Notes under the pieces: model-generated
Databases searched by the model: none
What the model was told of the DNA's origin: nothing
Seen by the model: only the letters and a program-made list of their open reading frames with translations
In this document: positions 1 to 14,106 of the stretch, in pieces
How the letters are laid out: every line of letters begins with the position of its first letter
Numbering within the stretch: the first letter of the stretch is position 1
Assembly: GCA_021852095.1 (NCBI GenBank)
Contig: JAJZOC010000074.1
Location: 1-14,738 of the forward strand
DNA from: a bacterium
GTDB lineage: Bacteria > Patescibacteriota > Microgenomatia > Levybacterales > UBA12049
Reading direction: 5' to 3'
Length of the DNA stretch: 14,738 nucleotides
Translations under genes and position numbers: made by a program

Positions 1-148
1 ACTATGGGAAAGACAAATCGCTAATTCTGTCTTATTATAATTCTTGTCTTTGGCATATAAACCCCGGCGAATTCTATAAAGATCACCTTTTTTTACATAA
101 TAATTAAGTCTTACCCTTGCAGAATTACCGATTTGTCTTTCCCATAGT
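1..148. repeat. Foldback: 29-bp inverted repeat, arms 1-29 and 120-148
   Basis: Bases 1-20 are the exact reverse complement of 129-148. After one mismatch (21 against 128), bases 22-29 match 120-127. The arms are therefore 29 bp with a single mismatch, separated by 90 bp. Both arms lie inside the AbiEi-like frame: the inner arm encodes the LLWERQIGNS part of a well-conserved domain, and the outer arm encodes unconserved residues at the very edge. A repeat that ends exactly at position 1 suggests a strand-switch chimera or an assembly fold at a contig end rather than a biological element. Confidence 0.85.
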
Positions 149-222
149 AAGGCAATATCTTTAGAAGTAAATACTGTTTTGGAGGATCGTAAAATAATTG
201 TTAAATAATCACCTTTACTTAT
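1..222 (-). CDS. AbiEi-like antitoxin, N-terminal part only (cut by window edge; no normal start codon)
   Basis: A 74-codon open frame runs off the left edge. It reads like the N-terminal winged-helix domain of AbiEi-family antitoxins: LRSSKTVFTSKDIALLWER (residues 11-29), then VRLNYYVKKGDLYRIRRGLY (37-56) and NKTELA. In that family the domain binds operator DNA and represses the operon, and the partner is an AbiEii nucleotidyltransferase toxin, which would lie beyond this edge. The frame opens after a stop at 240-238 and contains no ATG, GTG or TTG. The codon where the family's Met would sit is ATA (222-220), so I set the boundary there. Either ATA is used, the start was lost by mutation or sequencing error, or this is a pseudogene. 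The last ten or so codons (after TELA) belong to a foldback repeat and may not be the true sequence. Family assignment is by motif memory only. Confidence 0.6.
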   Translation of the reverse strand, partial: MSKGDYLTIILRSSKTVFTSKDIALLWERQIGNSARVRLNYYVKKGDLYRIRRGLYAKDKNYNKTELAICLSHS

Positions 223-236
223 AATTAGAACCCGAT

Positions 237-253
237 GTTAGGTTAAAACTAAC
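237..253. repeat. Short inverted repeat in the leader of the AbiEi-like gene
   Basis: GTTAG (237-241) and CTAAC (249-253) form a 5-bp inverted repeat with a 7-nt spacer. It lies between the predicted promoter and the AbiEi-like frame. AbiEi antitoxins are known to repress their own operon through inverted repeats near the promoter, so this could be an operator. A match this short can also arise by chance. Confidence 0.25.
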
Positions 254-266
254 TTCCAGTTCTTAT

Positions 267-296
267 ATTATAATTTCATGGCTCTTTTCTCAACAA
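267..296 (-). promoter_or_regulatory. Sigma-70-type promoter for the AbiEi-like gene
   Basis: On the minus strand a TTGTTG -35 box (296-291) is followed after 18 nt by a perfect TATAAT -10 box (272-267). Transcription would begin near position 260, leaving a leader of about 38 nt before the AbiEi-like frame. The promoter lies in the 119-bp gap after the Fic stop, so this gene can be expressed separately from fic. The -10 match is good and the -35 match is fair. Confidence 0.5.
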
Positions 297-341
297 CTGT
301 TTCCCCTTCCTCAAGACTCAGAGTCTAATTTATAAAAATTG

Positions 342-1352
342 CTATTTAAAAATATAGTAGCTATTTTTAGTCGTCCCTTTTTTATTCAGAAATCCTTTTT
401 CAGATAACGATTTTAGCAGATTAAAAGCTTGCTGTCTGGTTATGTTTAACTCTTTTGCCAAATCGGCTGAAGTTATTTCTTTATACTGTTTGGCAATTTC
501 AAGTGCCTGCTGTTCACGAGTAGAGGGTCTGATGTTAAAAGAAAGCTTAGACAAGCCTTCTTCAACTCGGCCTAAAGCGCTCTGAAGCGAATATTTAACG
601 CCGTCTGTAAAATACTCAAGCCATCTAGTTTTATCCCCCAAATCCGCACTATGAAGTGAGTCTGAATATAGCTCACGGTCTATATCGTAATAATCATCCA
701 AAACAAAGTATTTATTTATTTGATAGCTATGTGAAAGTAAAATAAGCGCGGTTAAAAGCCTGCACACTCTTCCGTTACCATCTTCAAATGGGTGAAGATA
801 AACAAATTCGTGGTGGAAAATACCTGCCTGTAAGATGATAGAACCTTTTGCTGTAAGCAGCCATTTCGTCAGATCACTCAAAGCATTTTCGATAGCAATG
901 CGGTCATGAAAAGGAGGATTATGTTTAATAATTATTTGCTTATCGATTTGTCTTCGGCCAACAACAATTGGTACATCTCTTATTTGACCCTTAATTTTAT
1001 CGTCAACACCGGTAAGTAACTCTTTATGAATATTACGTATTAGAGAAACATTGAAAGGCTCTGCTGTTTTTTTATCTAACTGTTTAAGTATTGAGAAATA
1101 ATTAAGTATCTCTTTCTCGCTTCTGTTCGTAGATACATGATCGTTTAAAATAAGATTTGTCACTTCTGCTACTGATAATGGATTCCCTTCAATGCTATTT
1201 GAAGCATAGGAAGATTGTATAAGATTTATTCTCTCAAGATTTAACTGTAGCTGATGTGGAATTCTTATTCCCTCAAGTTGGCCGTAGTAGCGTTCTATTG
1301 TAGTTAAATTTGTAAGGAGTTTTGAAGTAAGCGTAAATTTAGGATTTAACAT
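342..1352 (-). CDS. Fic family AMP-transferase (self-inhibited, with C-terminal winged helix)
   Basis: Fic proteins transfer AMP (or another phosphate-containing group) from a nucleotide to a hydroxyl side chain of a target protein in the cytosol. The 336-residue protein carries the complete core motif HPFEDGNGR (187-195), with catalytic H187 and the phosphate-binding GNGR. A target-docking flap fits around residues 122-135. SNSIEG (51-56) fits the inhibitory-helix motif [S/T]xxxE[G/N]; its Glu (E55) would block productive ATP binding, making this a class II Fic with its own N-terminal brake. Residues 280-336 look like a winged helix-turn-helix (TSADLAKELNITRQQAFNLL). The length is usual for soluble Fic/wHTH proteins. 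The start at 1352 sits 7 nt from a perfect -10 box, so translation is probably leaderless. The AbiEi-like gene follows 119 bp downstream. The target is unknown; it may be a toxin-like or regulatory AMPylase. Confidence 0.93.
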   Translation of the reverse strand: MLNPKFTLTSKLLTNLTTIERYYGQLEGIRIPHQLQLNLERINLIQSSYASNSIEGNPLSVAEVTNLILNDHVSTNRSEKEILNYFSILKQLDKKTAEPFNVSLIRNIHKELLTGVDDKIKGQIRDVPIVVGRRQIDKQIIIKHNPPFHDRIAIENALSDLTKWLLTAKGSIILQAGIFHHEFVYLHPFEDGNGRVCRLLTALILLSHSYQINKYFVLDDYYDIDRELYSDSLHSADLGDKTRWLEYFTDGVKYSLQSALGRVEEGLSKLSFNIRPSTREQQALEIAKQYKEITSADLAKELNITRQQAFNLLKSLSEKGFLNKKGTTKNSYYIFK

Positions 1353-1358
1353 AAACTC

Positions 1359-1387
1359 ATTATAGAAGGCATAAGACTAATTGTCAA
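1359..1387 (-). promoter_or_regulatory. Consensus sigma-70 promoter of the Fic gene, predicted leaderless
   Basis: On the minus strand TTGACA (1387-1382), a 17-nt spacer and TATAAT (1364-1359) match the consensus exactly. Only six bases (GAGTTT) separate the -10 box from the ATG at 1352, so the expected start of transcription falls on or next to the A of the start codon. No Shine-Dalgarno can exist between them. Confidence 0.85.
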
Positions 1388-1411
1388 GTTAATTGTCAAG
1401 TTAATTGTCAA
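1378..1411. repeat. 12-bp tandem repeat (about 2.8 copies) over the Fic -35 region
   Basis: On the minus strand the unit TTGACAATTAAC repeats head to tail, putting TTGACA hexamers at 1411-1406, 1399-1394 and 1387-1382, each 12 bp apart. Only the copy nearest the gene is correctly spaced from the -10 box; the others would be 29 and 41 nt from it. The array could be a direct-repeat operator (for example for the Fic winged helix) or a slippage expansion. It lies in the 145-bp gap between fic and the glycan operon. Confidence 0.9.
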
Positions 1412-1497
1412 ACACCCTCTTCTTAATATCTTTTAATTCCCCGAATTTCCCCTCTTTAAAAAGGAATAAGAATAAAACCAATATTAAAGTAACTATA

Positions 1498-4400
1498 CTA
1501 ATTGTTTTTTAAAATTGAAGACAAGCTTATATAAAATTTGTCGGCAAATTTTGCTTGACTCTTAAGATCAGGATGAAGACCGTCCCGTAAATCCGCCTCC
1601 GTAAGCCAAGAATAAGGATTTAAATATACAAGGTTATTGTCTTTAGCTACTCTTTTAATTATATTGCTGTAAGCTGAAACCTGATCGGCATTATAGTCTC
1701 CCCGCCTTAATAATCCAACTAAAATAATTTTTGAAGTTGGACTTCCATTCTTAATTCCTCTAACCAATTTTTTATAACTACTACGAAATGTCCTAAGCGG
1801 TACTTTTAAACCTAGATCATTTGTACCTAAATATACCAAAATAACATCGGGTTTAAATAAAACTATATCATTACGATATTGTTTAAGACCGGATGGCCAA
1901 CCCTTAACTTCAGAAGCGGACATGCCAAAAAAACCAGCATTATGTAATTGATATCCCAATTTGTCTGCTAATAAATAGGTAAAATTACTATCTCCCCAAG
2001 ATACGGAAATTGAGTCACCAAGCACTGCTAATGTTTTCTTTGGCACACCGTTTGGCGTTGTTATTATTGCATTATCATCAACATTAATTTCTCTTAAAGC
2101 TAAATCGCATGCAGAATAAGATCCACCACACCAATGCATTACTATAATATTATGTTTTTTTGTATCATCAGAATTGTTTATAGCTATTTTTAATTCTTTC
2201 TCATCAATATTAGGCGTTGTCAATTCATAATTTTTTCCATCTACGGAAACTCTTATTCCTTGCGCATTGTCATAATCATTTGAACTAGTTACTTTGAAAC
2301 TTATACTTCTAGTGTTTGCTATATTAAATCTTACCTCGTCTCCGCCATATCTTGACAGAATCATTTCTCCTTTTACAAAGGGGTTTTTTAGCGCTTTCCA
2401 GTCCTTTGAGAACCAAATATTTCGATCCCTTAAAATATTCTTGCTACTCTCTCTATGGTTTAAGAGGAATAAAACTGACAAAATAATTAATAATAGTATT
2501 AAATGAAATTTTTTATTTATCTTAAACCGTTTAGTAACTTTAATATAAAAAAGTATAAATAAGATAAATAAAATACCCAAAGATATAATAATTCCAATAT
2601 TTAATAGCTCTTGATTTTTATAATAAACGGTTACTTGATTTGTAATCAAAGAAGTTAACACAAAACTATTTAATCCGTCACTTGTTTTTTGACTGGGAAT
2701 AATTTTACCGCCATCCCATAGTACCCAGTTTGGATCATACTTCTGAGAAAATATCACTTTTGCAGGTCTATCTAAAATATTAAGATCTACTGTATATGTA
2801 ACAGGATTTATCTTATAGGATCTATATGGGATAACAGTCCCATTTGGTAGTACTGAATAAAAAAGCCCAGAAGAATTATTAAATTTATATACAGTTAAAC
2901 CCTTAAACTCTTTATCTTTGTTTAAATATGATATGTTGTCCAAAATATTTTCGATCGATTGCCTTTTATTTGCATCATAAGTTCTATTGGACAAAAATAT
3001 TTCTTTGGTGAAATCATCAGGAATAACAACGTATTTAACCGCTAATTTCTCTAATATTCCAATCGTTCCTGGGGCTCTCAATATTTTCTCTATCTGATTA
3101 ATATCTGTGGTATTAAATACTGTACTTGCATCTAGAATAGGATGGTTCTCTGATTCAAAAACAAAACGGTTTCTCCAGGGAACAACCAAGGTACGACTAA
3201 AGTCTGATTGGGATGAAACCAACTGCCCAAATTTAACATAATCCGATGGAACAGAAAGTTTTTTAAACGTTCCGCCCAACTGCCCCAAAATTGCAGGACG
3301 AATTAAAAATAACAAATATAAAGTAATAAGTATTAAGAATAAATTTTGAACATTTAGAAATTTTGATTTGATTAAAAATTTAAAATTAAAAATTAAAAAT
3401 TTCTTCTCGGTCTTCAGCCATTCATAAATCTTCCAAACACTAAACGGGATTAAAATTGAGTATGATATTGCCACTAAGACGTACCATTTTGTCGGATCCC
3501 GAAACATGATAAACCCGGGAACATATTTAAACATCCAAAGATATATTCCCCCAAACGGATCATTTGCTCCTTTTGCCAAAAACGCCCCGATCAAACCCAA
3601 CAAAGCAAAGAAAAGAATTACTCTATTGTTAGATTGTTGAATTGTTACATTGTTTTCAAATTTTTGACTTTTGACCTGCACTTTTGACCTTTGACTTTTG
3701 ACTTTTGACTTTGTTACAAATAGTAACGACGCATATGCTAAAATTGGCAGTATCAGAAACTCCGGCTTCATAAAACTAACCTTGCCAAAAATATTCTCCG
3801 GCCAAAATGGACTAAGAAGAGAAATCGCTTGCTCAAATCTCGCAAAACTAAAAAATTTTACTGATCTCAATGAGGTATAAGCACTGCCTAATTCCGCTGC
3901 GGGATTTTGCTTTCCTAAAATTAATGGCAAAAGCCAAAAAGACTGGAGTAATACTATAATGATTCCAGGAATGATAAAAATAAAAAAAAGGGATCGTAAT
4001 GCTTGATTTAAATTTCTTGCTTTAAGAAAACTAAATATCCAATATATTATTGCAGAGATTATAATTATATATGTAATCCTCAAATCGAATATAGTCAACA
4101 GTGATAAAACCAGTGAATACCAAATTATATTTTTTATCTTTATACTCTTCCTTATTAAGGGAAAAAAACCATATAGCACTAACGGCGCAATAGAATATGC
4201 CATAGCTATTCCCACTTGCCCACCGCCAACCATCATTAAAATATAAGTATTAGCCATATAAATAAGTGCGCCCAAAACAGCGAAGTTTCGATTTTTTAAA
4301 AAGCTATTAGTTAAAAGAAAAGAAGAAAAAGTGCCAATAATAAGAAATGGCCAGAAAAAAAGCATCCTTAATGTAATTGACCATGGTATATGTAAGACAA

Positions 4401-4650
4401 AGACAAGAAACCGAACTCCTAAACTTAAATATGTATTGAGATATAACGTTATAAGCGTATTGCCCCCTAATCCATTTCCTAATATGTTTGACCAAGCGTA
4501 AGGCTGCCATGAAAAATCTCCCAATCTTTCAGGAAGGTAATATGGCAAATCCGGTGCGCTCAATAATCCCTTGGTAAACCAGTTTTTATAAATAAATAGC
4601 AAAACGGAGAATATAATTAAAAGAAATATGTTCTTGTGTAAATATTTCAT
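1498..4650 (-). CDS. GT-C-like polytopic membrane protein fused to an extracytoplasmic SGNH hydrolase/acyltransferase
   Basis: This 1050-residue protein has two halves. Residues 1-450 are polytopic, with a signal-anchor-like first helix (8-21), a loop Asp in SAPDLPYY (D34) where GT-C enzymes keep a catalytic acid, and a motif GANDPFGG...VPGFIMFRDPTKW (361-389) shared with the 1170-residue protein upstream in the operon. Residues about 455-680 form a soluble outer domain. Two helices (683-703, 714-730) flank a basic loop (positive-inside), which puts the C-terminus outside. Residues 745-865 look like the jelly-roll that precedes CE2-type esterases. Residues 873-1050 are an SGNH domain: GDS (S880), G907, GTND (N944) and DGLH (D1023, H1026), all present. 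The likely role is lipid-linked glycosyl transfer plus removal or transfer of an acyl group on the surface glycan. The start overlaps the previous stop by 4 nt (ATGA). Basic loops at 314-331 and 418-428 are encoded by microrepeats. Exact donor and substrate are unknown. Confidence 0.82.
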   Translation of the reverse strand: MKYLHKNIFLLIIFSVLLFIYKNWFTKGLLSAPDLPYYLPERLGDFSWQPYAWSNILGNGLGGNTLITLYLNTYLSLGVRFLVFVLHIPWSITLRMLFFWPFLIIGTFSSFLLTNSFLKNRNFAVLGALIYMANTYILMMVGGGQVGIAMAYSIAPLVLYGFFPLIRKSIKIKNIIWYSLVLSLLTIFDLRITYIIIISAIIYWIFSFLKARNLNQALRSLFFIFIIPGIIIVLLQSFWLLPLILGKQNPAAELGSAYTSLRSVKFFSFARFEQAISLLSPFWPENIFGKVSFMKPEFLILPILAYASLLFVTKSKVKSQRSKVQVKSQKFENNVTIQQSNNRVILFFALLGLIGAFLAKGANDPFGGIYLWMFKYVPGFIMFRDPTKWYVLVAISYSILIPFSVWKIYEWLKTEKKFLIFNFKFLIKSKFLNVQNLFLILITLYLLFLIRPAILGQLGGTFKKLSVPSDYVKFGQLVSSQSDFSRTLVVPWRNRFVFESENHPILDASTVFNTTDINQIEKILRAPGTIGILEKLAVKYVVIPDDFTKEIFLSNRTYDANKRQSIENILDNISYLNKDKEFKGLTVYKFNNSSGLFYSVLPNGTVIPYRSYKINPVTYTVDLNILDRPAKVIFSQKYDPNWVLWDGGKIIPSQKTSDGLNSFVLTSLITNQVTVYYKNQELLNIGIIISLGILFILFILFYIKVTKRFKINKKFHLILLLIILSVLFLLNHRESSKNILRDRNIWFSKDWKALKNPFVKGEMILSRYGGDEVRFNIANTRSISFKVTSSNDYDNAQGIRVSVDGKNYELTTPNIDEKELKIAINNSDDTKKHNIIVMHWCGGSYSACDLALREINVDDNAIITTPNGVPKKTLAVLGDSISVSWGDSNFTYLLADKLGYQLHNAGFFGMSASEVKGWPSGLKQYRNDIVLFKPDVILVYLGTNDLGLKVPLRTFRSSYKKLVRGIKNGSPTSKIILVGLLRRGDYNADQVSAYSNIIKRVAKDNNLVYLNPYSWLTEADLRDGLHPDLKSQAKFADKFYISLSSILKNN
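3371..3402. repeat. Intragenic 7-bp AT-rich microrepeat
   Basis: The plus-strand unit ATTAAAA starts at 3371, 3385 and 3392, with a one-base variant at 3378, giving four perfectly phased heptamers followed by a partial one. On the coding strand it encodes the segment FLIFNFKFLIK (418-428) in a loop before the next membrane helix of the GT-C/SGNH protein. The period is not a multiple of three, yet the frame stays open. Confidence 0.8.
3625..3656. repeat. Intragenic 8-bp microrepeat
   Basis: ATTGTT occurs at 3625, 3633, 3641 and 3649, exactly 8 bp apart, each followed by two variable bases. On the coding strand it gives the Asn/Gln-rich stretch NNVTIQQSNNR (333-343) of the GT-C/SGNH protein, directly after the heptamer array. 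Confidence 0.85.
3661..3713. repeat. Intragenic 7-bp microrepeat (TTTTGAC / GTCAAAA)
   Basis: TTGAC occurs at 3664, 3671, 3684, 3691, 3698 and 3705, with spacings of 7, 13, 7, 7 and 7. On the coding strand it encodes a strongly basic loop, SKVKSQRSKVQVKSQK (315-330), in the GT-C/SGNH protein. The composition differs sharply from the surrounding hydrophobic sequence, so the array looks like a later expansion or insertion. Confidence 0.9.
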
Positions 4651-5255
4651 ACCCGTTGCTTAATCACTCTAGCTGGATTGCCAACCGCAATTGAATATGG
4701 CTTAATGCTTTTTGTCACAACCGATCCTGCCCCGATCACCGAACCTTTGCCAATTACCACTCCAGGCAATATAACTACATGTGTTCCTACCCATACGTTT
4801 TCCTCTATGGTAATTGGTGAAAAAGTATAACCCTGCTGAACAATTGGGGTTTTTAAATCGTTATAGTTGTGATTAAAATCAACTATGTAACAAAAGGCTG
4901 CAATAATTGTATTTTCACCAATGGATATTTTACCTTGTGACATAACATAAGAAGAATCATCCAGCAGAACATTTTTATCGATATCAATTTTCCCCGAAAA
5001 ACCTGCGCTAACTCTCGTATGTTTTCCAAGACGAGAATTTTTGCCGATTGAAATCGCATGTTTATTTGTTTGAAAAAAAGTATTGTCACCACCCAAAACT
5101 ACTGAATAGTCTACTCTATAACCTCTCAATCTCAAGAAAGTAATTTTTATGATAGATACTCCTTTATTAAAGACTAAATCGCATGAAGAGTAAAATGTTT
5201 CCAGTATGCCTTTATTCTTAAAGGCATTACGTATTAGTTGGTTTTTGTTTCCCAT
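4647..5255 (-). CDS. Left-handed beta-helix O-acyltransferase (WcaF/Maa-like)
   Basis: This 202-residue protein probably moves an acetyl group from acetyl-CoA to a sugar hydroxyl in the cytosol. Hexapeptide repeats run from about residue 66 to 182 (AISIGKNSRLG, KISIGENTII, ITIEENVWVG, VVIGKGSVIGAGSVV), the signature of trimeric beta-helix acyltransferases. VDFNHNYND places a His (H129) where the family keeps its catalytic base. The C-terminal SIAVGNPARVIKQR is typical of the CysE/LacA/WcaF group. The first 60 residues are basic and not recognised; they may contact the membrane or a partner. Translation is probably coupled to both neighbours: the start overlaps the small membrane gene by 22 nt and the stop overlaps the GT-C/SGNH start by 4 nt. 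Sitting beside an SGNH domain, it suggests that O-acyl groups on the glycan are added inside and then edited or moved outside. The acceptor is unknown. Confidence 0.9.
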   Translation of the reverse strand: MGNKNQLIRNAFKNKGILETFYSSCDLVFNKGVSIIKITFLRLRGYRVDYSVVLGGDNTFFQTNKHAISIGKNSRLGKHTRVSAGFSGKIDIDKNVLLDDSSYVMSQGKISIGENTIIAAFCYIVDFNHNYNDLKTPIVQQGYTFSPITIEENVWVGTHVVILPGVVIGKGSVIGAGSVVTKSIKPYSIAVGNPARVIKQRV

Positions 5256-5632
5256 AAATCTTTTATATAATAAAAAACAATAATTATCATAAGAAAATAA
5301 ACACCATTTCCGATCGATTCTGCTACGGCATTCTTATGAATTAATGTAAATAATAGTGCTATTCCATATAATAATAAATTTATTATCAGTATTCTTTCTT
5401 TCTTGATACCAAATAAAATTACTGCCAGAATGAATAAAATTAAATAGTTTGTTGGGAAAGAAAGAATTAAATTAAAATACGGAAGTTTTTCGATCAAAAT
5501 AAATATGACCGAAAAAATAACAAACATTTCAAGCCTAATCCTTTTTTCTGTCCAAAGATTAACAATTTCTCTATCTATAATTAGAGAATATCCTGTAAAT
5601 ATTTTTTTTGTATTGTTATAAAACGTTTTCAT
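5234..5632 (-). CDS. Small polytopic membrane protein, function unknown
   Basis: I do not recognise a family for this 132-residue protein. It has a basic, amphipathic N-terminus (about 1-33), then strongly hydrophobic stretches at about 36-48, 57-75, 83-98 and 110-122, consistent with four short membrane helices, and a charged tail. Its gene overlaps the 1170-residue GT-C-like gene by 17 nt and the acyltransferase gene by 22 nt, so it is almost certainly translated with them. Being held between a GT-C-like enzyme and an acyltransferase suggests an accessory role: for example helping the glycan or acyl donor across the membrane, or as a subunit of the membrane enzyme. That role is inference from position only. 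The reading frame is supported by the overlaps and the transmembrane pattern rather than by homology. Confidence 0.7.
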   Translation of the reverse strand: MKTFYNNTKKIFTGYSLIIDREIVNLWTEKRIRLEMFVIFSVIFILIEKLPYFNLILSFPTNYLILFILAVILFGIKKERILIINLLLYGIALLFTLIHKNAVAESIGNGVYFLMIIIVFYYIKDLWETKTN

Positions 5633-8600
5633 CTTTTTTACGTTTTTTGTATACTTTATACATAAAGAAACAGCCTAATAGAAATATTATTGTTGCACCG
5701 CTAAGAAGTAAGCCCTCATAAAAAAGCTGTTGAGGATAAAATTCAACAATCAATCTGCCATTAAAAGGCTTGTTTATATACCACGCGTTGGCAAAATCAT
5801 ATATCTCAAAATGATTATTATTAAAAACTGGTTTTTTAAAGAACGTTTCTGCAAAAAACCCTGGCGGGTTTTTTCCATCCACCTCATATAATCTCCATAG
5901 TGGATTATACGCCTCGTTAAAAGTAAGAACCATTGGTGAATTTACATGAAGCTCTAGGGAATATTTTGTGGGATCAATCCTTGTGTAGCTAATTTTTTGG
6001 ACCCGTGCATTAACGTTTGATTTATCTTTAGGCATAAAAAACACCTGTGGAGTTGTTATACGCTCAATGGTCAATGATTTTAATGATTGTTCAGGATTAT
6101 TTATTGTATTTTGACAATAATATATAGATGCCGATGTATCGCCATCCGAACCAGTAATTATAATATTATCCTGTCTCGTCTTACTTACATCTACAGAATA
6201 ACTGCTAGTCGGATAAAAATAACCATTATTGGATTGATTCGCTTTTCCTGCATTCTTAACATTTACATAAATCATCGCATCCTTAGCAAGAAAAGGATCA
6301 ACGCTATACATAATCTTATAGGTATTTTTCCAAGAAAATCCAGCAATATCACCAACGATGCAATTCATTTGCGAATCGGCAAAATAAATATTTTGCCTAT
6401 GCTGATTAATAAATAGATTACTCGGTTGTGGAAAAAAGAGTTTTATCGAAGATGCTCCTGAGAGGTTAAATAAACCAAGTGAAATTTTTTCCTTATTATC
6501 TACTGCTTTAATAGGAAAAGTAGATTGATTTATTTGAATTTTATTTGGAAGCAGAAGAGATCCGTTATTTCTCTTATCAAGAGATAATGCATCTATATAT
6601 ATCTCTCCTTGCGTAAGATTATTTGGAATAGCGTATTCTTTAACTCTTGACCAATCATTTCCTTGAATTATAGTATTAATCGAGTTATTTACCGCGTTCA
6701 TTTCCCATATTGTGCTACCGATTTCTTGCTGTAGAGTTCCAGGACCCACGGCATCATATAACTTTATCAATATCGGCCGTTCAAGTTTTATATACGCTTT
6801 CAATGTTTGCACCAGCGAAAAATCAGTTTGTTTCTCTTTAATAACTGTATTATTTACATAGGTATTGATAAAATTCCAATATCCCAATAATTTTCCGTTC
6901 GTTTTATTAATCAACTCTTGATTTGAATTCTTATCAATAAGACCTTTCATTTCCGATACTCGCTTTGCCGACAATCCTAACCTATTCACCATTAATTGTT
7001 TTGTGTCAAGACTTGGATTATCAACCTTTCGCTCTTCCCATTTTTTTAAAAAATATAATGGAGAACCCGGAAGAATACCGGCAGATGGCAATTCTGGCAA
7101 ACTAAGTTTTTTTTCTAAAATACATGATTCGCAAGACAATGAATAAATCATCCCATCAATTGGTAAGTTTATACTCGTAGATTGCTTATATCCCGGAGGT
7201 GGGTAGAAAAAATTATTTGATCCCGCAAGAACTGCTCCTGTAATTGCATTTTCTTCTCCGATAAATTCTGTTACGTTCTTTAACCCATAGAATTTATGAT
7301 TATCACCAAAGGGCAATCTATAAACATCCCATGCTCCATCACGCCAAAGAGGAGATATTAGCTTATTCTTTGCCAAAGCCTTTTTATAAATAGACGGATT
7401 TTCAGATGGAATCCAGTTCAAATTATAATAGCTATCATTCCGAAGCAAAGCAAAAGGCGTTTCCAATAAAGACGCAATATCCGAAATATGAGGACCATTG
7501 TTTAAAATCTCATCATAAAGGCGATTAATAAGCGCATATTGACCGTCGTTTAGTCCACCTCCGTTTTCCATTATTGGTTTTGGGGAGACAAGATTAAAAA
7601 AGCTTAATACGCTAAAATAATTCCAAGTATATGCTTCTGCGTGCCATAGCGTATTTAATCTTGGCATAAGAAGCATTCTATTTTCATCATCTAAATTTTT
7701 TTTACTCCAGTCTTCGTAGCGAAAAACATAATTTGGTATATGTACAAGTGTGGTAAGCGGTTTATTCCAAACAAAAAAATCTTTTCCTAAAAAAGGAAAG
7801 TGGTACAAAATTATTAATACTATTACACTCGCCGCGAGAAGTTTTTTGGGAATAGTTATTTTAAAATTAAATAATTTATAACTTTTATTCTTCTCTATTA
7901 ATATATTTATTGTATAAGAAATTAAAATAGCAAAAGCAAGATAAAGAGCAGGAATAAATTTATATTGCGCGGATCTAAAAATTACAAAGAAGGGAACATG
8001 TTCCATGAGGAAGATAAAAAGAGAACCCGTAGGGGAATGCGTTCCTGCGGAAAAAAAGATTGCCACCAATGACAGAGCAACAAAAAGCACGATAATTTTT
8101 TTTTGTTCTCGTTCACGAACAAACCATAAAGATAGATAAGCAAAAAAGGCAAATAAGAAACTGAAAACTATAAGGAATGGGTTTTGTAAAAAATAGTTGG
8201 AGTAAGCATGGTTAATATTATCATACCAATCCGGGAATCCCTGTAGGCGAAATAAATTAATAATACTGGTATGCTGGCTTACAGAATCAGCCCAATTTAT
8301 CAAACCAGCAATCCCGCCCATAGATGCCGTACTAGAAACAAAATTTGAATTAACATACCTAACCATTGGCAGAATCCAATACGCATTCAAAAAAAACGAT
8401 AATATGGCTGTCGTAGCTGTTAATATAAAGATCCTCGAAATAATCTCTATCCTTTCTTTATTATTGCTAATAATTAAAAAGAAGATAGATGCGGTCATAA
8501 GAGTAATTATTACCCCTCCATAAAGAGGAAGACTTCCTCCGCCGCCAGCGCTAAAGAAGAACAACACTAAGGAGATATAAATACCAGCCTTAATTGGTGA

Positions 8601-9128
8601 AATCTGCTTTTTGAGAAATTTTATAAAAAATAGTGCTACTAAAGGAAGCGCTGTATAGGCAGAAAATGTTGTACCCGCTCCTAATCTCCATAGGGCTAAT
8701 AAATAAAAATTAAATATGTATAAGACTGATGCAATAAGCGGAAAATAACGAAAATTAAAAACCTTACGAAGGGAATACGCAAAAAAATACATTGACAAAC
8801 CCATAGCAACAAACCAAAATATAAAGGTGAATTTTTGTGCGTCAAATATTGAAAAACCAATCATCCTAAAGAATGCCTCAATCCCGTTTATGCTAATGGT
8901 ACCCATATTTATAGATGCATCCTGACCGAATGGCGCACTAATCGACCACGTAAAAAAGAGATTTTTAAAAAAATTAACTACGTCAATAGGATAAGCAGAA
9001 TCATTTCCTGTAACATAATTGTTATTGGTAAACCATATTGATGGTATAAAACCTAACAAAACTATAATAAATATATCCTTCAGCCTATTGCTGTATTCTT
9101 TAAGTAATTTCGAGATTAAAAACTTCAT
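5616..9128 (-). CDS. Giant GT-C-like membrane glycosyltransferase (YfhO/AftD-like) with DUF5667-like segment
   Basis: This 1170-residue protein has an N-terminal polytopic region (about 19-450, ten or more hydrophobic segments), a very large extracytoplasmic region (about 450-1130) and one C-terminal helix (about 1137-1157) ending in a basic tail, YKKRKK, which should face the cytosol. The first outer loop holds TGNDSAYPID (D43), placed like the catalytic Asp of GT-C enzymes that use polyprenyl-phosphate sugars. GTHSPTG...VPFFVIFRSAQYK (362-390) matches the equivalent motif of the 1050-residue protein, so the two are paralogues. Residues 684-735 (ILPGSPLYFLKKWEERK..., then a helical stretch) resemble DUF5667, a domain I associate with Patescibacteria and related groups. 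Residues 1051-1081 (PTKYSLEL...YNPLWRLY) repeat a beta module also found at 615-645 of the paralogue. It starts 1 nt after the methyltransferase stop. Donor sugar and acceptor are unknown; AftD-like arabinosyl transfer is only an analogy. Confidence 0.78.
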   Translation of the reverse strand: MKFLISKLLKEYSNRLKDIFIIVLLGFIPSIWFTNNNYVTGNDSAYPIDVVNFFKNLFFTWSISAPFGQDASINMGTISINGIEAFFRMIGFSIFDAQKFTFIFWFVAMGLSMYFFAYSLRKVFNFRYFPLIASVLYIFNFYLLALWRLGAGTTFSAYTALPLVALFFIKFLKKQISPIKAGIYISLVLFFFSAGGGGSLPLYGGVIITLMTASIFFLIISNNKERIEIISRIFILTATTAILSFFLNAYWILPMVRYVNSNFVSSTASMGGIAGLINWADSVSQHTSIINLFRLQGFPDWYDNINHAYSNYFLQNPFLIVFSFLFAFFAYLSLWFVREREQKKIIVLFVALSLVAIFFSAGTHSPTGSLFIFLMEHVPFFVIFRSAQYKFIPALYLAFAILISYTINILIEKNKSYKLFNFKITIPKKLLAASVIVLIILYHFPFLGKDFFVWNKPLTTLVHIPNYVFRYEDWSKKNLDDENRMLLMPRLNTLWHAEAYTWNYFSVLSFFNLVSPKPIMENGGGLNDGQYALINRLYDEILNNGPHISDIASLLETPFALLRNDSYYNLNWIPSENPSIYKKALAKNKLISPLWRDGAWDVYRLPFGDNHKFYGLKNVTEFIGEENAITGAVLAGSNNFFYPPPGYKQSTSINLPIDGMIYSLSCESCILEKKLSLPELPSAGILPGSPLYFLKKWEERKVDNPSLDTKQLMVNRLGLSAKRVSEMKGLIDKNSNQELINKTNGKLLGYWNFINTYVNNTVIKEKQTDFSLVQTLKAYIKLERPILIKLYDAVGPGTLQQEIGSTIWEMNAVNNSINTIIQGNDWSRVKEYAIPNNLTQGEIYIDALSLDKRNNGSLLLPNKIQINQSTFPIKAVDNKEKISLGLFNLSGASSIKLFFPQPSNLFINQHRQNIYFADSQMNCIVGDIAGFSWKNTYKIMYSVDPFLAKDAMIYVNVKNAGKANQSNNGYFYPTSSYSVDVSKTRQDNIIITGSDGDTSASIYYCQNTINNPEQSLKSLTIERITTPQVFFMPKDKSNVNARVQKISYTRIDPTKYSLELHVNSPMVLTFNEAYNPLWRLYEVDGKNPPGFFAETFFKKPVFNNNHFEIYDFANAWYINKPFNGRLIVEFYPQQLFYEGLLLSGATIIFLLGCFFMYKVYKKRKKDENVL

Positions 9129-9129
9129 A

Positions 9130-9768
9130 TTAAGTTTTATTTAATTTCTTAACTGCAAAGAGATCAAATGACAAAGAAGGAAATGGGAAAAATATAATTT
9201 CCGATATAAGAGAGCAGATTCCCCAAAAAATCCAAGGCTTATATTTTATTCCCGCATGGTCGTCTCTTAAAAATTTAAGTCCTCTTAAACCATAGACGGT
9301 ATACCCTAATTTTCTAAGATCGGTCTTTGTCCATCCTGACTTATGAATCTGATGTGGATTACCATCAAAAGCATGTTGTTCATAAAAGCCGTTGGGCGTT
9401 AAAATTATTACCCTTTTTTTAGCTATAACCTCCATATCCTTAATAAGTCTTAAAGCATCCTGTTTATTAAAATGCTCAACAACATCAATAGCAACACATG
9501 CATCGAAACTTTTCTTTTTATAAAGTTTAGACAACTTCTTTATATCACCTAACATATACTTATCATGTAATTTTTTTCTTTTACTTTCAATAATATTCTT
9601 TTTATAAATATCAATTCCTTCACTACGAAATCTCCTGCGAATCATACCTATAGATGAACTATGTCCGCAACCGACATCCAATACAGAATTACACTTCGAT
9701 AATTCTTTTTCTAAAATCCTATAGAAAAAAATGTTTTGATATTTTGAAAAAAAGCTTCTTATGTTCAT
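9130..9768 (-). CDS. Class I SAM-dependent methyltransferase
   Basis: This 212-residue protein has the Rossmann-type SAM site of the Methyltransf_11/UbiE-like group: motif I NSVLDVGCGHSS (28-39), acidic D53 at the end of the second strand (GIDIY), GDIKKL (74-79) and SFDACVAIDVVEHF (87-100). The following VIILTPNGFYEQ (120-131) is a usual substrate-side strand. A hydrophobic stretch near the C-terminus (179-200, Phe/Ile/Trp-rich) could touch the membrane, which would suit a lipid-linked substrate. It lies 23 nt after the GT4-type glycosyltransferase and 1 nt before the giant GT-C-like gene, so it belongs to the same transcript. The most likely job is O-methylation of a sugar in the surface glycan, possibly as a cap. 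The substrate cannot be read from sequence. Confidence 0.85.
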   Translation of the reverse strand: MNIRSFFSKYQNIFFYRILEKELSKCNSVLDVGCGHSSSIGMIRRRFRSEGIDIYKKNIIESKRKKLHDKYMLGDIKKLSKLYKKKSFDACVAIDVVEHFNKQDALRLIKDMEVIAKKRVIILTPNGFYEQHAFDGNPHQIHKSGWTKTDLRKLGYTVYGLRGLKFLRDDHAGIKYKPWIFWGICSLISEIIFFPFPSLSFDLFAVKKLNKT

Positions 9769-9791
9769 AATCTAGCTAAAACGGCGAATAT

Positions 9792-11024
9792 CTACATATG
9801 TCTAAACGCGTTTAAGAATGAATTTTCCCAAGTGCTATCTTTCGCAAAGATTATAGCATTTTTACGGAGTTTTAAATAAAGTTTAGTATCGGTAAATATA
9901 TTGATAATCGCTTCCGCAAAGCTTTTTGAGTCATCGTTTACTATTAATGCTGCACCTTTTTTTGAAACCTCTAATCCTAAAGGCGGCACTTGTGAACTTA
10001 CAATTGGTATTCCTGCCGCCGCATAAACACGGATCTTTCCCGCGTCTGCATAATAACGAGGCGATCCTGGTATAGCCCTATAAGGAGCTAAACCAACAGA
10101 ACATAAGCTAATTATTTTAGACATATCTGAACTTTTTTGCACAAATCCATGATGGTAAACTGATTTTTCAAGATGCAGTTTTTGAATAATTTTTTTTAAC
10201 CAAACAAAATCTTTATCTGTTCCTCCTATAATATGTAAATTAGCATCCGGAAACCTTTCTCTAACCAATGCTAGAGCTTGAATCGCCACATCTGGCCCGT
10301 TTTCAGGACCCAATGTTCCCATATAAACCATGGAATGCCTATCAATTTTAGAAACCGGATTTGCTTTAATTTGGTTTTTATATAAACCATTGGGCACATG
10401 AATTACGGGAGCAGATTTTTGAGGATTTAGTCCCGCTTTAATACGCGCCGGCTGCATTGCTTTTGAAACATCCCAAATATAATCTGCATGCATAGCGCAA
10501 AATCTATCTAACCATAGATATACAGCATTAAACCATTTTTGCGGATACCGCTTAGGCGAGTAATCTGATACATAATATACTACTTTTTTCACTCGGCCGA
10601 TTTTGCGTAAAAAGATTCCAGCCAACGCATTTACGCTTTCTAAACCGATAAGATAATCGAAATGTATTTTGTCTCTAAAAGACCAATCTATTACGGATAA
10701 AAAATCACGAATTTTAAATCTGATTTGAGTACCATTAGAATGTGACATTGCCAAAATTGGTTTCAATAAATAAACAACCCATGAAGATTTACGCGGTATA
10801 AATTTCATACTACCCGTATATTCTTCAATTTTTGGTATCACATCTTCACTGCCAGGATACAATTGATCAATAATTACTAACTTTCTAACCCTTGGCACTA
10901 AAAAATCCCGTAAAGGCTCTACACTTCCATTTGTTGGCAAACGTTGATTATTGTTCCATACAGAAAATGTGGCAAACAATACAGATGAGTTCTTTGATAA
11001 TGGAGGACTACTTTTTATTATCAT
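9792..11024 (-). CDS. GT4-type (GT-B fold) glycosyltransferase
   Basis: This 410-residue protein should move a sugar from a nucleotide donor to a glycan or lipid-linked acceptor on the cytosolic side. The C-terminal half is typical GT4: MVYMGTLGPENGPDVAIQAL (232-251), ANLHIIGG (261-268), then YADAGKIRVYAAAGIPIVSS (325-344), which corresponds to the nucleotide-sugar binding region. The usual EX7E is replaced by a divergent version around residues 346-363. The N-terminal half holds GLESVNALAGIFLRKIGRVK (127-146) and DYSPKRYP...LDRF...ADYIWDVS, a pattern also present in the other GT4 protein of this operon, so the two are paralogues. The start at 11024 overlaps the upstream epimerase-like gene by 17 nt, which argues for coupled translation. 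No membrane segment is seen. Donor is unknown; a GDP-hexose is plausible beside a GDP-mannose 3,5-epimerase. Confidence 0.88.
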   Translation of the reverse strand: MIIKSSPPLSKNSSVLFATFSVWNNNQRLPTNGSVEPLRDFLVPRVRKLVIIDQLYPGSEDVIPKIEEYTGSMKFIPRKSSWVVYLLKPILAMSHSNGTQIRFKIRDFLSVIDWSFRDKIHFDYLIGLESVNALAGIFLRKIGRVKKVVYYVSDYSPKRYPQKWFNAVYLWLDRFCAMHADYIWDVSKAMQPARIKAGLNPQKSAPVIHVPNGLYKNQIKANPVSKIDRHSMVYMGTLGPENGPDVAIQALALVRERFPDANLHIIGGTDKDFVWLKKIIQKLHLEKSVYHHGFVQKSSDMSKIISLCSVGLAPYRAIPGSPRYYADAGKIRVYAAAGIPIVSSQVPPLGLEVSKKGAALIVNDDSKSFAEAIINIFTDTKLYLKLRKNAIIFAKDSTWENSFLNAFRHM

Positions 11025-11835
11025 TCTTTAGAATTTCTTTGGCTTCTTCAACCATAGCTACTATTCCATCCCTAAGCTCAACTCTAGGAAGCCAACCCGG
11101 CACTCTCCCCATATTATCAGCAGGAAGAGGATCATGCCCTTTTGTTTTACCCGGATAAAGTCTTGCCCCAGTCAAGCCAGCCACCATCTGTGCTATGTCA
11201 ATTATTTTAATCCACTCATAGCTACTTGCGTCATACACAGTACGGCGTAAATTTTTTGTATTTAAAGCTGTGTAAAAAGCACTACAGAGATCATCTATAT
11301 GCGTAAACTGCCGCCATTCTTCCCCATTTGTCATCATTTGTATTTTTCCTGTTTGCAGTGCTTGATAAATAAAATCGGAGATTACATGGCTTTTAATATC
11401 TTGTTTTTCCATTACTCCATAAGCGTTCCAAACGCGAATGCATACGCCTTTTAGCAAACTAGTCCAAACTTCTCCCAGTCTTTTAGTAGAACCATATACC
11501 GTATCTGATTCTTCTGTCAGCTGGCTTGAAACAAAAAGAAAATCAGTTTTTTTCTGTTCTTCCAGTTGATTAAATACATTAGTCATTAAATCCAAATTCC
11601 ACTTTAATTGAGACATTTGAAGTTTTGATTCATAGAGATATTTTGATCCGCCCACATCCCAAGCAAGAAAATAAATTCTATCTATATCTTTGAAGTCGAA
11701 TTTAAAAAACCTGCCGTCTTCTCTCTTATCTTTTTTAATATCAAAATGGATAACTTTTTCACCTCTTTTTTCAAGGAATTTACAAAAAGGCTTTCCTATA
11801 AAACCTTCTGAACCAATAACTAAATTTCTAATCAT
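11008..11835 (-). CDS. Extended short-chain NAD(P)-dependent sugar-nucleotide epimerase/reductase
   Basis: This 275-residue protein has the dinucleotide-binding motif GSEGFIG (8-14), the active-site SS (103-104) and YGSTK (Y114, K118) of extended short-chain dehydrogenases. RQFTHIDDLCSAF (175-187) and the C-terminal GWLPRVELRDGI (247-258) are usual in sugar-nucleotide epimerases and 4,6-dehydratase relatives. The region after the nucleotide site is shorter than usual: the normal family length is about 310-330 residues. LAWDVGGSKY (57-66) echoes LAADMGGAGY in the neighbouring GDP-mannose 3,5-epimerase, so it may be a distant relative. However, it has Gln (SSQL) where that enzyme has its catalytic Cys. 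It probably works on the product of that epimerase or on another GDP/dTDP-sugar. It lies 18 nt after the epimerase gene and overlaps the next gene by 17 nt. The exact reaction is not readable. Confidence 0.85.
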   Translation of the reverse strand: MIRNLVIGSEGFIGKPFCKFLEKRGEKVIHFDIKKDKREDGRFFKFDFKDIDRIYFLAWDVGGSKYLYESKLQMSQLKWNLDLMTNVFNQLEEQKKTDFLFVSSQLTEESDTVYGSTKRLGEVWTSLLKGVCIRVWNAYGVMEKQDIKSHVISDFIYQALQTGKIQMMTNGEEWRQFTHIDDLCSAFYTALNTKNLRRTVYDASSYEWIKIIDIAQMVAGLTGARLYPGKTKGHDPLPADNMGRVPGWLPRVELRDGIVAMVEEAKEILKNDNKK

Positions 11836-11853
11836 ATATAAATCTTGGGAAAA

Positions 11854-12846
11854 TTATTTGCTAGTTTTGTGGACTTGTTCATTAATCCAAACATAAGTCT
11901 TTTCAAGTCCGTCTCGTAAAGAACTAGTAGGTTTCCATCCAAGCTTCTTTTTAATTAACCTATTATCCGATTTCCTGCCCCTGACTCCTTGAGGTCCAGA
12001 AATATGCTTTATTTTTAGTTTCTTTCCTGCTATTTCCATAACCATTTCTGCCAATTGGTTTATAGAAACCATTTCTTCCGAGCCAATATTAACAGGTCCT
12101 GTAAAATTTGAATTCATTAACCTACGCACGCCTTCTAAACATTCATCTATATACAAAAAGGATCTAGTTTGTTTCCCATCCCCCCACATCTCGATTATTC
12201 CGCCATCTTTTACTTGTGCAACTTTTCTACACATTGCGGCAGGAGCTTTTTCTTTTCCGCCTGTCCAGGTTCCTTCCGGACCGAATATGTTATGAAACCT
12301 TGCTATTCTCACTTTTAAACCAAAATTCTTATGATATGCTAAATATAATCTCTCGCTAAATATTTTTTCCCAGCCATATTCGCTATCCGGCGCGGCAGGA
12401 TATGCGGATTCCTCGAAGAGTTTAGGATTTTTTGGATCCAACTGGTTATATGCCGGATAAATACAAGCTGAAGAGGAATAAAATATTTTTCCAGCCTTTG
12501 ATTCCTGCGCATTTTGGAGTACATTTAAATTTATAAGCGAGGAATTATGCATAATATTCGCATCGTTATCCCCTGTAAAAATATACCCCGCTCCACCCAT
12601 ATCGGCAGCTAATTGATAAACTTCATCAAATCTTTGATTAAAAACTTTTTTAACAAACATTTGATCTCTTAGATCCCCAACAATAAATTTATCAGCTTCC
12701 GACCTGCCATATTCCGGTTTTTTTAGATCAACTCCAAGTACCCAAAATCCTTCTTTTTTAAGTTTCTTTACTAAATGACTTCCAATAAATCCACCCGCAC
12801 CGCAAACCAATGCTGTTTTTTTGATATTTTTTATTGTTCTACTCAT
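11854..12846 (-). CDS. gme: GDP-mannose 3,5-epimerase
   Basis: It converts GDP-D-mannose to GDP-L-galactose (and GDP-L-gulose) with bound NAD, in the cytosol. The 330-residue sequence is strikingly like plant GME along its whole length: GAGGFIG (16-22), AADMGGAGYI (80-89), SSACIYP (125-131), RFHNIFGPEGTWTGG (183-197), EKAPAAMCRK (199-208), GDGKQTRSFLYIDECLEGV (222-240), NIGSEEMVS (253-261) and GPQGVRGRKSDN (284-295). From memory, the Arabidopsis catalytic residues are C145, Y174, K178, K217 and R306; here C128, Y157, K161, K200 and R289 sit at a constant offset of 17, so there is no gap in the core and nothing is missing. The operon gap before it (75 bp) is the largest, and its ATG lacks a clear Shine-Dalgarno. 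The product would supply the two GT4 glycosyltransferases. A close relative acting on another GDP-hexose cannot be excluded. Confidence 0.93.
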   Translation of the reverse strand: MSRTIKNIKKTALVCGAGGFIGSHLVKKLKKEGFWVLGVDLKKPEYGRSEADKFIVGDLRDQMFVKKVFNQRFDEVYQLAADMGGAGYIFTGDNDANIMHNSSLINLNVLQNAQESKAGKIFYSSSACIYPAYNQLDPKNPKLFEESAYPAAPDSEYGWEKIFSERLYLAYHKNFGLKVRIARFHNIFGPEGTWTGGKEKAPAAMCRKVAQVKDGGIIEMWGDGKQTRSFLYIDECLEGVRRLMNSNFTGPVNIGSEEMVSINQLAEMVMEIAGKKLKIKHISGPQGVRGRKSDNRLIKKKLGWKPTSSLRDGLEKTYVWINEQVHKTSK

Positions 12847-12876
12847 ACTCTATCTTATATTCAGATTTCTAAATAA

Positions 12877-12897
12877 GTGTTATGTATAATTTAACAC
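12877..12897. other. Short inverted repeat in the largest gap of the glycan operon
   Basis: GTGTTA (12877-12882) and TAACAC (12892-12897) form a perfect 6-bp inverted repeat with a 9-nt spacer, 31 bp upstream of the GDP-mannose 3,5-epimerase start. On the minus strand an AT-rich TATACA lies in the spacer and TATAAG nearer the gene, but no well-placed -35 box goes with either. It could be an operator, an mRNA hairpin or chance. Confidence 0.3.
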
Positions 12898-12921
12898 ATT
12901 TTATTGAAACTTAAAAGCCTT

Positions 12922-14106
12922 TTAATTTAAAATATTATTTTTATAATAGATACTCCTGTTTATATTTATCTTATTAAATAATTCATCTAAAACCCTTTCA
13001 CTATCTCTTACTTTGGCTAATTTTAACGCATTTACTCTAAACTCGCTATACAACTGTTTATTCACAATAAGTTCTCTTATTGCTTTTACGAGTTCTTTTT
13101 CATTTGCGTTAATATGTAACCCTGCTTTATTTTTTTCAATATCTTCTGCTGTACCATTGTCCCCAGAGATTATAACAGGCAATCCTAATGCCAGATAGTC
13201 TCTCGCCTTCATGGAATCTATATAATACTCTCCTGGGTAACTATTGATGTAAAAAGCAATACCAATTCCATAATCTGCTATTGTCCTAAATAATTTATCA
13301 TGCGACATTGCGCCTAAAAAGGTAATATTATGATCCAATCTTCTTTTTTTTACTAAAGCTTTCAGCTCTTTTTCCATTATTGGCAAACATACAAATGTTA
13401 ATTTTATACCGGGAAACTCTTTTGATAGATTGCCTATAGCATTTAGTAACATAGTAAATTCGTCTACCGATTTTCTGGTAGACACGACTATCAGCTTGAA
13501 GGGATTTACTACTTTTGAAACTAAATGTCTGGTACGAGCAATTGAGGGAGAATTAGGTAACCAGATAAGTTTGTTGTCTGAAATCCCATCACTTCTTCGT
13601 ATATCTAATATCCTATTCGAAACGGCCAACACCAGATCCGCATTACGAACAGTTAACTTATCTAAAAAATGATACAGCATATTCAAAAATGCGTTACTAT
13701 ATCGTGACTTCGTATAATCAGGACTAAAAGCAATAAGCATTTTTACTCTTCTTAACTTTTTTAATAGTAACCCCCATACTGTATTCAACGGGTCTACGCC
13801 AATATACACAGGCTGATCTTTATCTAAAAATCTTGAGATCAATTTAAAAGTAAGCCATCCTTCCCAGATTCTTGCTCCAATCTCTCCAAATATTACTTTA
13901 TATGGTATGACTTCCTCTTTTTTGCTTATTCCATCAAAATAAGTTACAAGCGTTACCCCCTCTAGATATATTGAATGTCTTATAAATAAAAAAGGTTGTT
14001 GTTGCTTCTCTAAATAATAAGAAATCGTGTGGGCGGGACCGGCATTATCAATATTATTTTTACTAATAACCGTATGACTTACGATACAATAGCTAATTTT
14101 TTTCAT
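12922..14106 (-). CDS. GT4-type (GT-B fold) glycosyltransferase
   Basis: This 394-residue protein is a cytosolic sugar transferase acting on a nucleotide-sugar donor. The C-terminal donor half shows FKLIVVSTRKSVDEFTMLLNAI (203-224), ITFLGAMSHDKLFRTIADYGIGIAFY (261-286) and KARDYLALGLPVIISGDNGTAEDI (300-323), the layout of GT4 enzymes, although the Glu pair of the usual EX7E is only partly kept (E321, E324). The N-terminal half has GVDPLNTVWGLLLKKLRRVK (103-122) and SPDYTKSRYSN...LDKLTVRNADLVLAVS, which parallels the other GT4 protein in this operon; duplication of an ancestral gene is likely. The start overlaps the preceding RmlD-like gene by 14 nt. Residues 380-394 (basic, Tyr/Asn-rich) are a poorly conserved tail. 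Sugar and linkage are unknown. The stop codon lies in a short AT-rich palindrome with no terminator-like U-run. Confidence 0.86.
   Translation of the reverse strand: MKKISYCIVSHTVISKNNIDNAGPAHTISYYLEKQQQPFLFIRHSIYLEGVTLVTYFDGISKKEEVIPYKVIFGEIGARIWEGWLTFKLISRFLDKDQPVYIGVDPLNTVWGLLLKKLRRVKMLIAFSPDYTKSRYSNAFLNMLYHFLDKLTVRNADLVLAVSNRILDIRRSDGISDNKLIWLPNSPSIARTRHLVSKVVNPFKLIVVSTRKSVDEFTMLLNAIGNLSKEFPGIKLTFVCLPIMEKELKALVKKRRLDHNITFLGAMSHDKLFRTIADYGIGIAFYINSYPGEYYIDSMKARDYLALGLPVIISGDNGTAEDIEKNKAGLHINANEKELVKAIRELIVNKQLYSEFRVNALKLAKVRDSERVLDELFNKININRSIYYKNNILN

Follow-up and report, generated by a model that had tools for sequence, protein, structure and literature searches.

The stretch of DNA analysed here, hereafter the window, comprises 14,738 nucleotides (contig C72, bases 1-14738); the genome it belongs to is 0.66 Mb in size, split over 96 contigs and 57% complete. 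On its minus strand lies a gene whose 1050-residue product joins a polytopic membrane half of GT-C glycosyltransferase type, resembling AftD and MmpA, to a C-terminal half in which a jelly-roll precedes an SGNH hydrolase domain, the layout of CE2 carbohydrate esterases (Table 1). A preliminary description made from the letters alone had proposed such a single chain, and the AlphaFold2 (AF2) model, Pfam and structure matches agree with it. Pfam recognised the SGNH part alone (PF13472, 1.7e-19), the sole GDSL_2 match in the window's genome, and NCBIfam gave matches far under their cut-offs to a CE2-type esterase model (1.2e-9) and to MmpA (7.9e-7). Immediately upstream, overlapping the fusion gene by 4 nt, is a gene for a left-handed beta-helix (LbH, hexapeptide) O-acetyltransferase-like protein.

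The fusion is a recurrent gene structure. A search of 5.8 billion proteins returned 386 homologues. Among the 120 listed, the fused form accounts for 11 proteins (957-1344 residues); the rest are mostly unfused, with lengths near 690 residues. Some homologues bear the names Woesebacteria, Levybacteria or "Patescibacteria group bacterium", which suggests Patescibacteria. With two further distinct fusions from genomes G192 and G267, at least 13 distinct fusions are available, and the fused state is common to proteins down to 35% identity with the window protein. The possibility that separate genes had been joined by an assembly error, which the preliminary description named as fatal to its proposal, is thus rejected by the 13 distinct fusions. 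In two of the fusions (P0009, P0011; L068:7967-11977) the GT-C part is preceded by an additional N-terminal segment, about 340 residues long, that contains hydrophobic stretches.

To place these proteins we used 60 of the 109 unfused proteins listed for the GT-C alignment and tree, and 32 of the 109 for family scans. Most of the aligned unfused proteins (53/60) end at positions 706-715, and the remaining seven have stray aligned residues beyond 715, none being listed with a GDSL domain. In the unrooted tree of GT-C halves, built by a quick method, the fusions form one side of a branch with full support (Shimodaira-Hasegawa-like approximate likelihood ratio test, SH-aLRT, 100), and a second unrooted tree with 30 unfused proteins, including representatives of genus g107, family f10 and the window's family f1, gave the same split (SH-aLRT 100). 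The simplest reading of these sequences would be one old fusion that has persisted in the lineage of the window and, within family f10, in genus g107. Both halves also exist unfused: stand-alone SGNH modules were found in nine clear cases of 308-341 residues (two weak matches of 11, P0130 and P0131, were omitted from alignments), and in genome G063 the halves are separate genes about 11 kb apart. The same genome has a 118-residue GT-C fragment before its full copy, as if partly duplicated (L066:14759-15115 and 15242-17305).

Across 373 genomes of the window's class, a profile of the SGNH module matched 11 genomes at 1e-15, and seven hold the full module, six as fusions and G063 unfused; the matches in G106, G116, G328 and G383 (E 1e-15 to 1e-17) cover the SGNH end alone and were left out of the full-module count. 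The module occurs in 2 of 82 genomes of the window's order and in 5 of 24 genomes of family f10, all five within genus g107 (5/7 of that genus), and the GT-C family is found in 86 of the 373 class genomes at 1e-60. A phylum sample of 379 genomes (share outside the class not specified) yielded the full module in G000 and G063, and the SGNH half in G601. Scanning contigs with the single window protein as query returned no relatives; the module alignment recovered one close locus (L033) and 30 partial, distant loci, and the 16 records retrieved from plasmids were all from Streptomyces, each covering less than 80% of the module. A candidate second GT-C fusion (L031, the SGNH frame in G383) was rejected, as its product starts with a signal-like segment and contains repeats. 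Elsewhere, a GDSL match lies within an open frame of 14,283 residues (G115:C3:84843-85412).

The membrane half has the GT-C transmembrane fold by structure comparison, and its match to AftD, a mycobacterial GT-C arabinofuranosyltransferase (PDB 6w98; 14% identity), extends through its last helix. Because a profile of unfused GT-C proteins gave nothing credible against PDB sequences (best E 0.88), the GT-C assignment rests mainly on structure. In GT-CA enzymes the catalytic Asp is described as lying in the stretch that links TM1 to TM2, where it tips a juxtamembrane helix (PMC12041299). D34 of the window protein likewise lies after the first helix of the AF2 model (8-25) and before helix 66-85, and this residue is Asp in 70 of the 71 fused and unfused homologues, the remaining row being a gap. 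R191 and K388 are kept in all 71 sequences of the GT-C alignment. The nearest named sequence family of the unfused homologues is MmpA (NF053599; C. glutamicum NCgl2761), the only one matched by all 32 of those scanned (weakly; best 1.7e-10). The window protein scores 28.0 of 210 bits against this model, far short of the curated cut-off. We treat the resemblance as a lead and not as a family assignment. A WPENIFG stretch (residues 283-289, window 3784-3804, minus strand) is near-invariant, with each residue kept in 68-71 of 71 sequences, yet is modelled at pLDDT <50; it is perhaps a loop that orders upon substrate binding.

Residue conservation in the SGNH half was counted over the 11 fusions and nine stand-alone modules. 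The block I Ser, block III Asn and block V Asp and His characteristic of the SGNH superfamily are present in every one of the 20 sequences, and the block II Gly is general among the fusions and retained in most of the stand-alone modules. Of the catalytic set first proposed, S880, N944, D1023 and H1026 were thus borne out, and the glycine, placed earlier at G907, is actually G909. The N-terminal jelly-roll followed by a C-terminal SGNH domain is the CE2 arrangement, and CE2_N (PF17996) matched one of 10 modules weakly (E 0.0034), the window protein not being the one; in P0010 the jelly-roll stretch matches poorly. In CE2 enzymes the block V Asp, where present, is reported two residues before the His (D-x-H, mostly D-W-H) and is missing in 14 of 26 (PMC2661963), whereas in all 20 sequences here it stands three before (DGLH in the window protein), so that block V is not of CE2 type. 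The DUF459/PatB family PF04311 (cut-off 27.2 bits) matched 9 of 10 modules weakly (best 1.9e-7; 25.9 bits for the G063 module), but not the window protein.

Several features argue that the SGNH domain faces outward, as the preliminary description had placed it. In the AF2 model the last GT-C helix (680-709) and the helix before the module (713-730) form a hairpin whose connecting loop has five K/R and lacks D/E, which should put the SGNH part and the outer domain of the GT-C half on one face of the membrane. A hydrophobic N-terminal helix is present on 8 of the 9 stand-alone modules, fitting an anchored protein with its N-terminus inside and its C-terminus outside. The window protein contains exactly two cysteines, C841 and C848, both invariant in the 20 module sequences, as would be expected of a disulfide outside the cytosol. 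Together, hairpin, anchors and Cys pair make the outward orientation well supported, and a cytosolic SGNH domain is rejected on the topology and the Cys pair.

The upstream LbH gene accompanies the module across genomes. With orthologues defined as matches at E<=1e-60 to a profile built from these same loci, LbH occurs in 10 of the 373 genomes: all seven that hold the complete SGNH module, plus G039, G065 and G146. It is therefore present in 7/7 genomes with the module versus 3/366 without (Fisher 6e-13) and, among GT-C genomes, in 6/6 with the fusion versus 3/80 in which none was found (Fisher 2e-7), both values ignoring relatedness and the bias of the LbH profile; the 80 genomes were assigned as unfused by the module-profile scan and not individually. 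Of 12 LbH matches in all, the partial ones above the threshold in G129 (5e-38), which has a GT-C gene, and G361 (1.5e-36) were not counted, and the g107 genomes without the module (G149, G173) gave no LbH match even at 1e-35. Around 19 unfused GT-C loci (flanks of at most about 1.5 kb), LbH lies beside the gene or one gene off in two (G039, G063). G065 and G146 count neither way, since in both the contig breaks off within the expected GT-C gene or ahead of it. In G063 the neighbours of the separate SGNH gene are, immediately before it, the gene of a different hexapeptide acyltransferase and, after it, a methyltransferase gene. The co-occurrence with a beta-helix acyltransferase that had been suggested as a check is thus positive, although G039 breaks a strict pairing.

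We favour, at about even confidence, a reading in which the fusion is a single-chain, outward-facing enzyme of surface-glycan assembly that combines sugar transfer with removal of an ester-linked acyl group on one substrate. The LbH acetyltransferase would add acetyl in the cytosol, and the acetylated intermediate would be translocated to the outer face. There the GT-C half (AftD/MmpA type) would use a lipid-phosphate donor for sugar transfer, and the ester-linked acyl would be stripped from the same glycan or lipid-linked intermediate by the SGNH half, a tethered CE2-like domain. This reading builds on the computed folds of both halves, the conservation of the SGNH set and D34, the single fusion group, the outward topology and the LbH co-occurrence; it supposes activity in both halves, hydrolysis rather than acyl transfer by the SGNH half, and a substrate common to the two, the acyl group most likely being acetyl. 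A parallel is the MmpA pathway of C. glutamicum, in which production and export of acetylated trehalose mycolate are reported to require MmpA, an acetyltransferase and a putative methyltransferase; the acetyl is later removed "by a yet to be identified enzyme" (PMC8698533). More doubtfully, acetyl may serve as a transient tag, placed by LbH on a lipid-linked sugar in the cytosol, carried with it across the membrane and, once the GT-C half has transferred the sugar, stripped by the SGNH half to clear the way for the following step ("transfer and unmask"); if so, the fusion would exemplify the deacetylation step proposed for the MmpA/TmaT pathway, for which it is in any case a candidate design (PMC8698533).

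Three points weigh against the favoured reading. The MmpA paper assigns the comparable part of AftD a membrane-anchoring role and locates catalysis further along the chain (PMC8698533), which leaves glycosyltransferase activity of the GT-C half putative. The seven module genomes represent about three lineages, five of the seven being one genus. Finally, G039 has a clean LbH without SGNH, with LbH close to an unfused GT-C gene.

Other explanations, not all mutually exclusive, account for parts of the same evidence. The SGNH half might be an acyltransferase, moving an acyl group from a membrane partner or another glycan onto the GT-C-built chain in the manner of AT3-SGNH proteins. Known outer-face SGNH acyltransferases are described with an AT3 or MBOAT membrane partner (PMC7448272, PMC9487903), but the membrane half here matches GT-C folds and has no AT3 (PF01757) or MBOAT Pfam match, and an outer-face acyl donor is not known here. 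None of the seven module genomes gave an MBOAT match (3/14 controls positive); AT3, present in 5 of 7 (10/14 controls), is either on a separate contig (G063, G130, G243) or at a distance of 60-78 kb (G267, G115), and was not found in G192 (96% complete) or G000 (57%). This survey favours hydrolysis over acyl transfer without proving it, and we consider the acyltransferase rather unlikely. Slightly less probable still is that the two halves have unrelated or only loosely connected functions, and that fusion chiefly spares an SGNH esterase of the same cluster its own membrane anchor. The existence of both halves as separate genes, as in G063, would fit this, as would the N-terminal hydrophobic helix that stand-alone modules already carry, matching residues 713-730; the grouping of fused proteins down to 35% identity and the LbH gene in 6/6 genomes with the fusion speak against it.

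In a further alternative the GT-C half is no glycosyltransferase but, like MmpA, a scaffold or a helper in the transport of an acetylated glycolipid, from which the SGNH half removes the acetyl once transport is complete. It draws on the MmpA match of all 32 scanned homologues, on the reported need for MmpA in making acetylated trehalose mycolate and the anchoring role ascribed to the AftD-like part (PMC8698533), and on the acetyltransferase and methyltransferase genes that the window too contains. We judge it improbable, given an MmpA match at 28 of 210 bits, far under the cut-off, the conserved D34 at the expected GT-C position, a structural match to AftD that runs through the last helix, and fusion loci L064, L065 and L067 without a methyltransferase counterpart at that place, though G130 has such a gene nearby (L076). 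Least probable by far is that the module mostly binds glycan for the GT-C half; CtCE2 is reported to bind cellulose via its active-site cleft and to aid an attached cellulase (PMC2661963), and carbohydrate-binding modules (CBMs) occur in GT-C enzymes such as AftD and GT136 (PMC11127046), but all 20 sequences keep the Ser, Asn, Asp and His, some of which should have been lost if the module did nothing but bind.

Each half is of a known kind. At title and abstract level, searches of openly licensed papers listed no described protein fusing GT-C with SGNH or a carbohydrate esterase, in line with the preliminary description, and nothing on this layout under deacetylase/glycosyltransferase fusions or transient acetylation; one paper describes deacetylase and transferase as separate genes (PMC10936431). 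If both halves serve one glycan, extracytoplasmic sugar transfer would be tied to acyl editing within a single chain. The source organisms appear to be Patescibacteria, whose surface chemistry is little known. AftD differs in having three CBMs (PMC8698533). It is not known to carry an SGNH domain. MmpA, which likewise works beside acetyltransferase and methyltransferase genes, differs in its 474 residues and in that the passages available mention no esterase domain (PMC8698533). Unlike the CE2 esterases (CtCE2, CjCE2A-C; PDB 2wab, 2wao, 2waa), described with D-x-H (PMC2661963), the fusion has DxxH, is membrane-tethered and is joined to a GT-C enzyme. AT3-SGNH proteins (OafA, OafB, OatA) share a polytopic membrane enzyme, an extra helix and an outer SGNH domain acting on surface glycans (PMC7448272), but their membrane half is AT3, which moves acyl groups across the membrane, and OafA and OafB are described without the Gly/Asn oxyanion pair (PMC7448272) that the fusions have. 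PatA/PatB (MBOAT + SGNH) likewise has an SGNH enzyme working outside on glycan (PMC9487903), and the PatB family is the one weakly matched by most modules, but its MBOAT partner was not found in the seven module genomes. GT136 with a CBM also fuses an extracytoplasmic glycan-acting domain to a GT-C enzyme, although its added domain binds glycan (PMC11127046) and that of the fusion carries a complete esterase set.

Table 1. Features of the fusion gene and its neighbours in the window
Feature	Position	Strand	Evidence or remark
GT-C / CE2-like SGNH fusion gene, 1050 aa	1498..4650	-	Open reading frame; AF2 pLDDT 91.4, pTM 0.88; 13 distinct fusions
GT-C region, residues 1-710, AftD/MmpA-like	2521..4650	-	
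D34, acidic residue in loop after TM1, candidate GT-C catalytic Asp	4549..4551	-	
Outer domain of GT-C half, residues 469-677	2620..3246	-	Alpha/beta then beta segment (AF2)
Last GT-C membrane helix, residues 680-709	2524..2613	-	AF2; Kyte-Doolittle 2.98
Basic inner loop, residues 704-713, 5 K/R, 0 D/E	2512..2541	-	
Membrane helix before SGNH module, residues 713-730	2461..2514	-	AF2; counterpart of stand-alone modules' N-terminal anchor
CE2-like jelly-roll domain, residues 736-868	2047..2445	-	
Cys pair C841/C848, invariant	2107..2130	-	20/20 module sequences
SGNH hydrolase domain, residues 870-1050	1501..2043	-	Pfam PF13472; PDB 2wab/2wao/2waa
S880, block I nucleophile (GDS)	2011..2013	-	20/20
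G909, block II glycine	1924..1926	-	11/11 fusions, 6/9 stand-alone modules
N944, block III Asn (GTND)	1819..1821	-	20/20
D1023-x-x-H1026, block V	1573..1584	-	20/20
LbH (hexapeptide) O-acetyltransferase-like gene, 202 aa	4647..5255	-	Pfam PF00132 8e-16; WbbJ/WcaF-type NCBIfam matches below cut-off
Small membrane protein, 132 aa, four hydrophobic segments	5234..5632	-	Common at this place in related loci
Second GT-C protein, AftD-like, 1170 aa	5616..9128	-	
Methyltransferase	9130..9768	-	Pfam PF08241 1.5e-9
Group 1 glycosyltransferase	9792..11024	-	Pfam PF00534 7.9e-18
NAD-dependent epimerase/dehydratase (SDR275)	11008..11835	-	Pfam PF01370 1.5e-18
NAD-dependent epimerase/dehydratase (SDR330)	11854..12846	-	Pfam PF01370 8.9e-41

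Among the neighbouring genes, the one for the small membrane protein lies between an AftD-like gene and an LbH or GT-C gene in several related loci, and the product is a possible lipid-sugar flippase. Downstream of the fusion gene, the window encodes a Fic/DOC-family protein with C-terminal HTH-type (helix-turn-helix) matches (342-1352, minus strand), and a Fic gene is also found near the unfused GT-C gene of G041 (L073:11001-12035).

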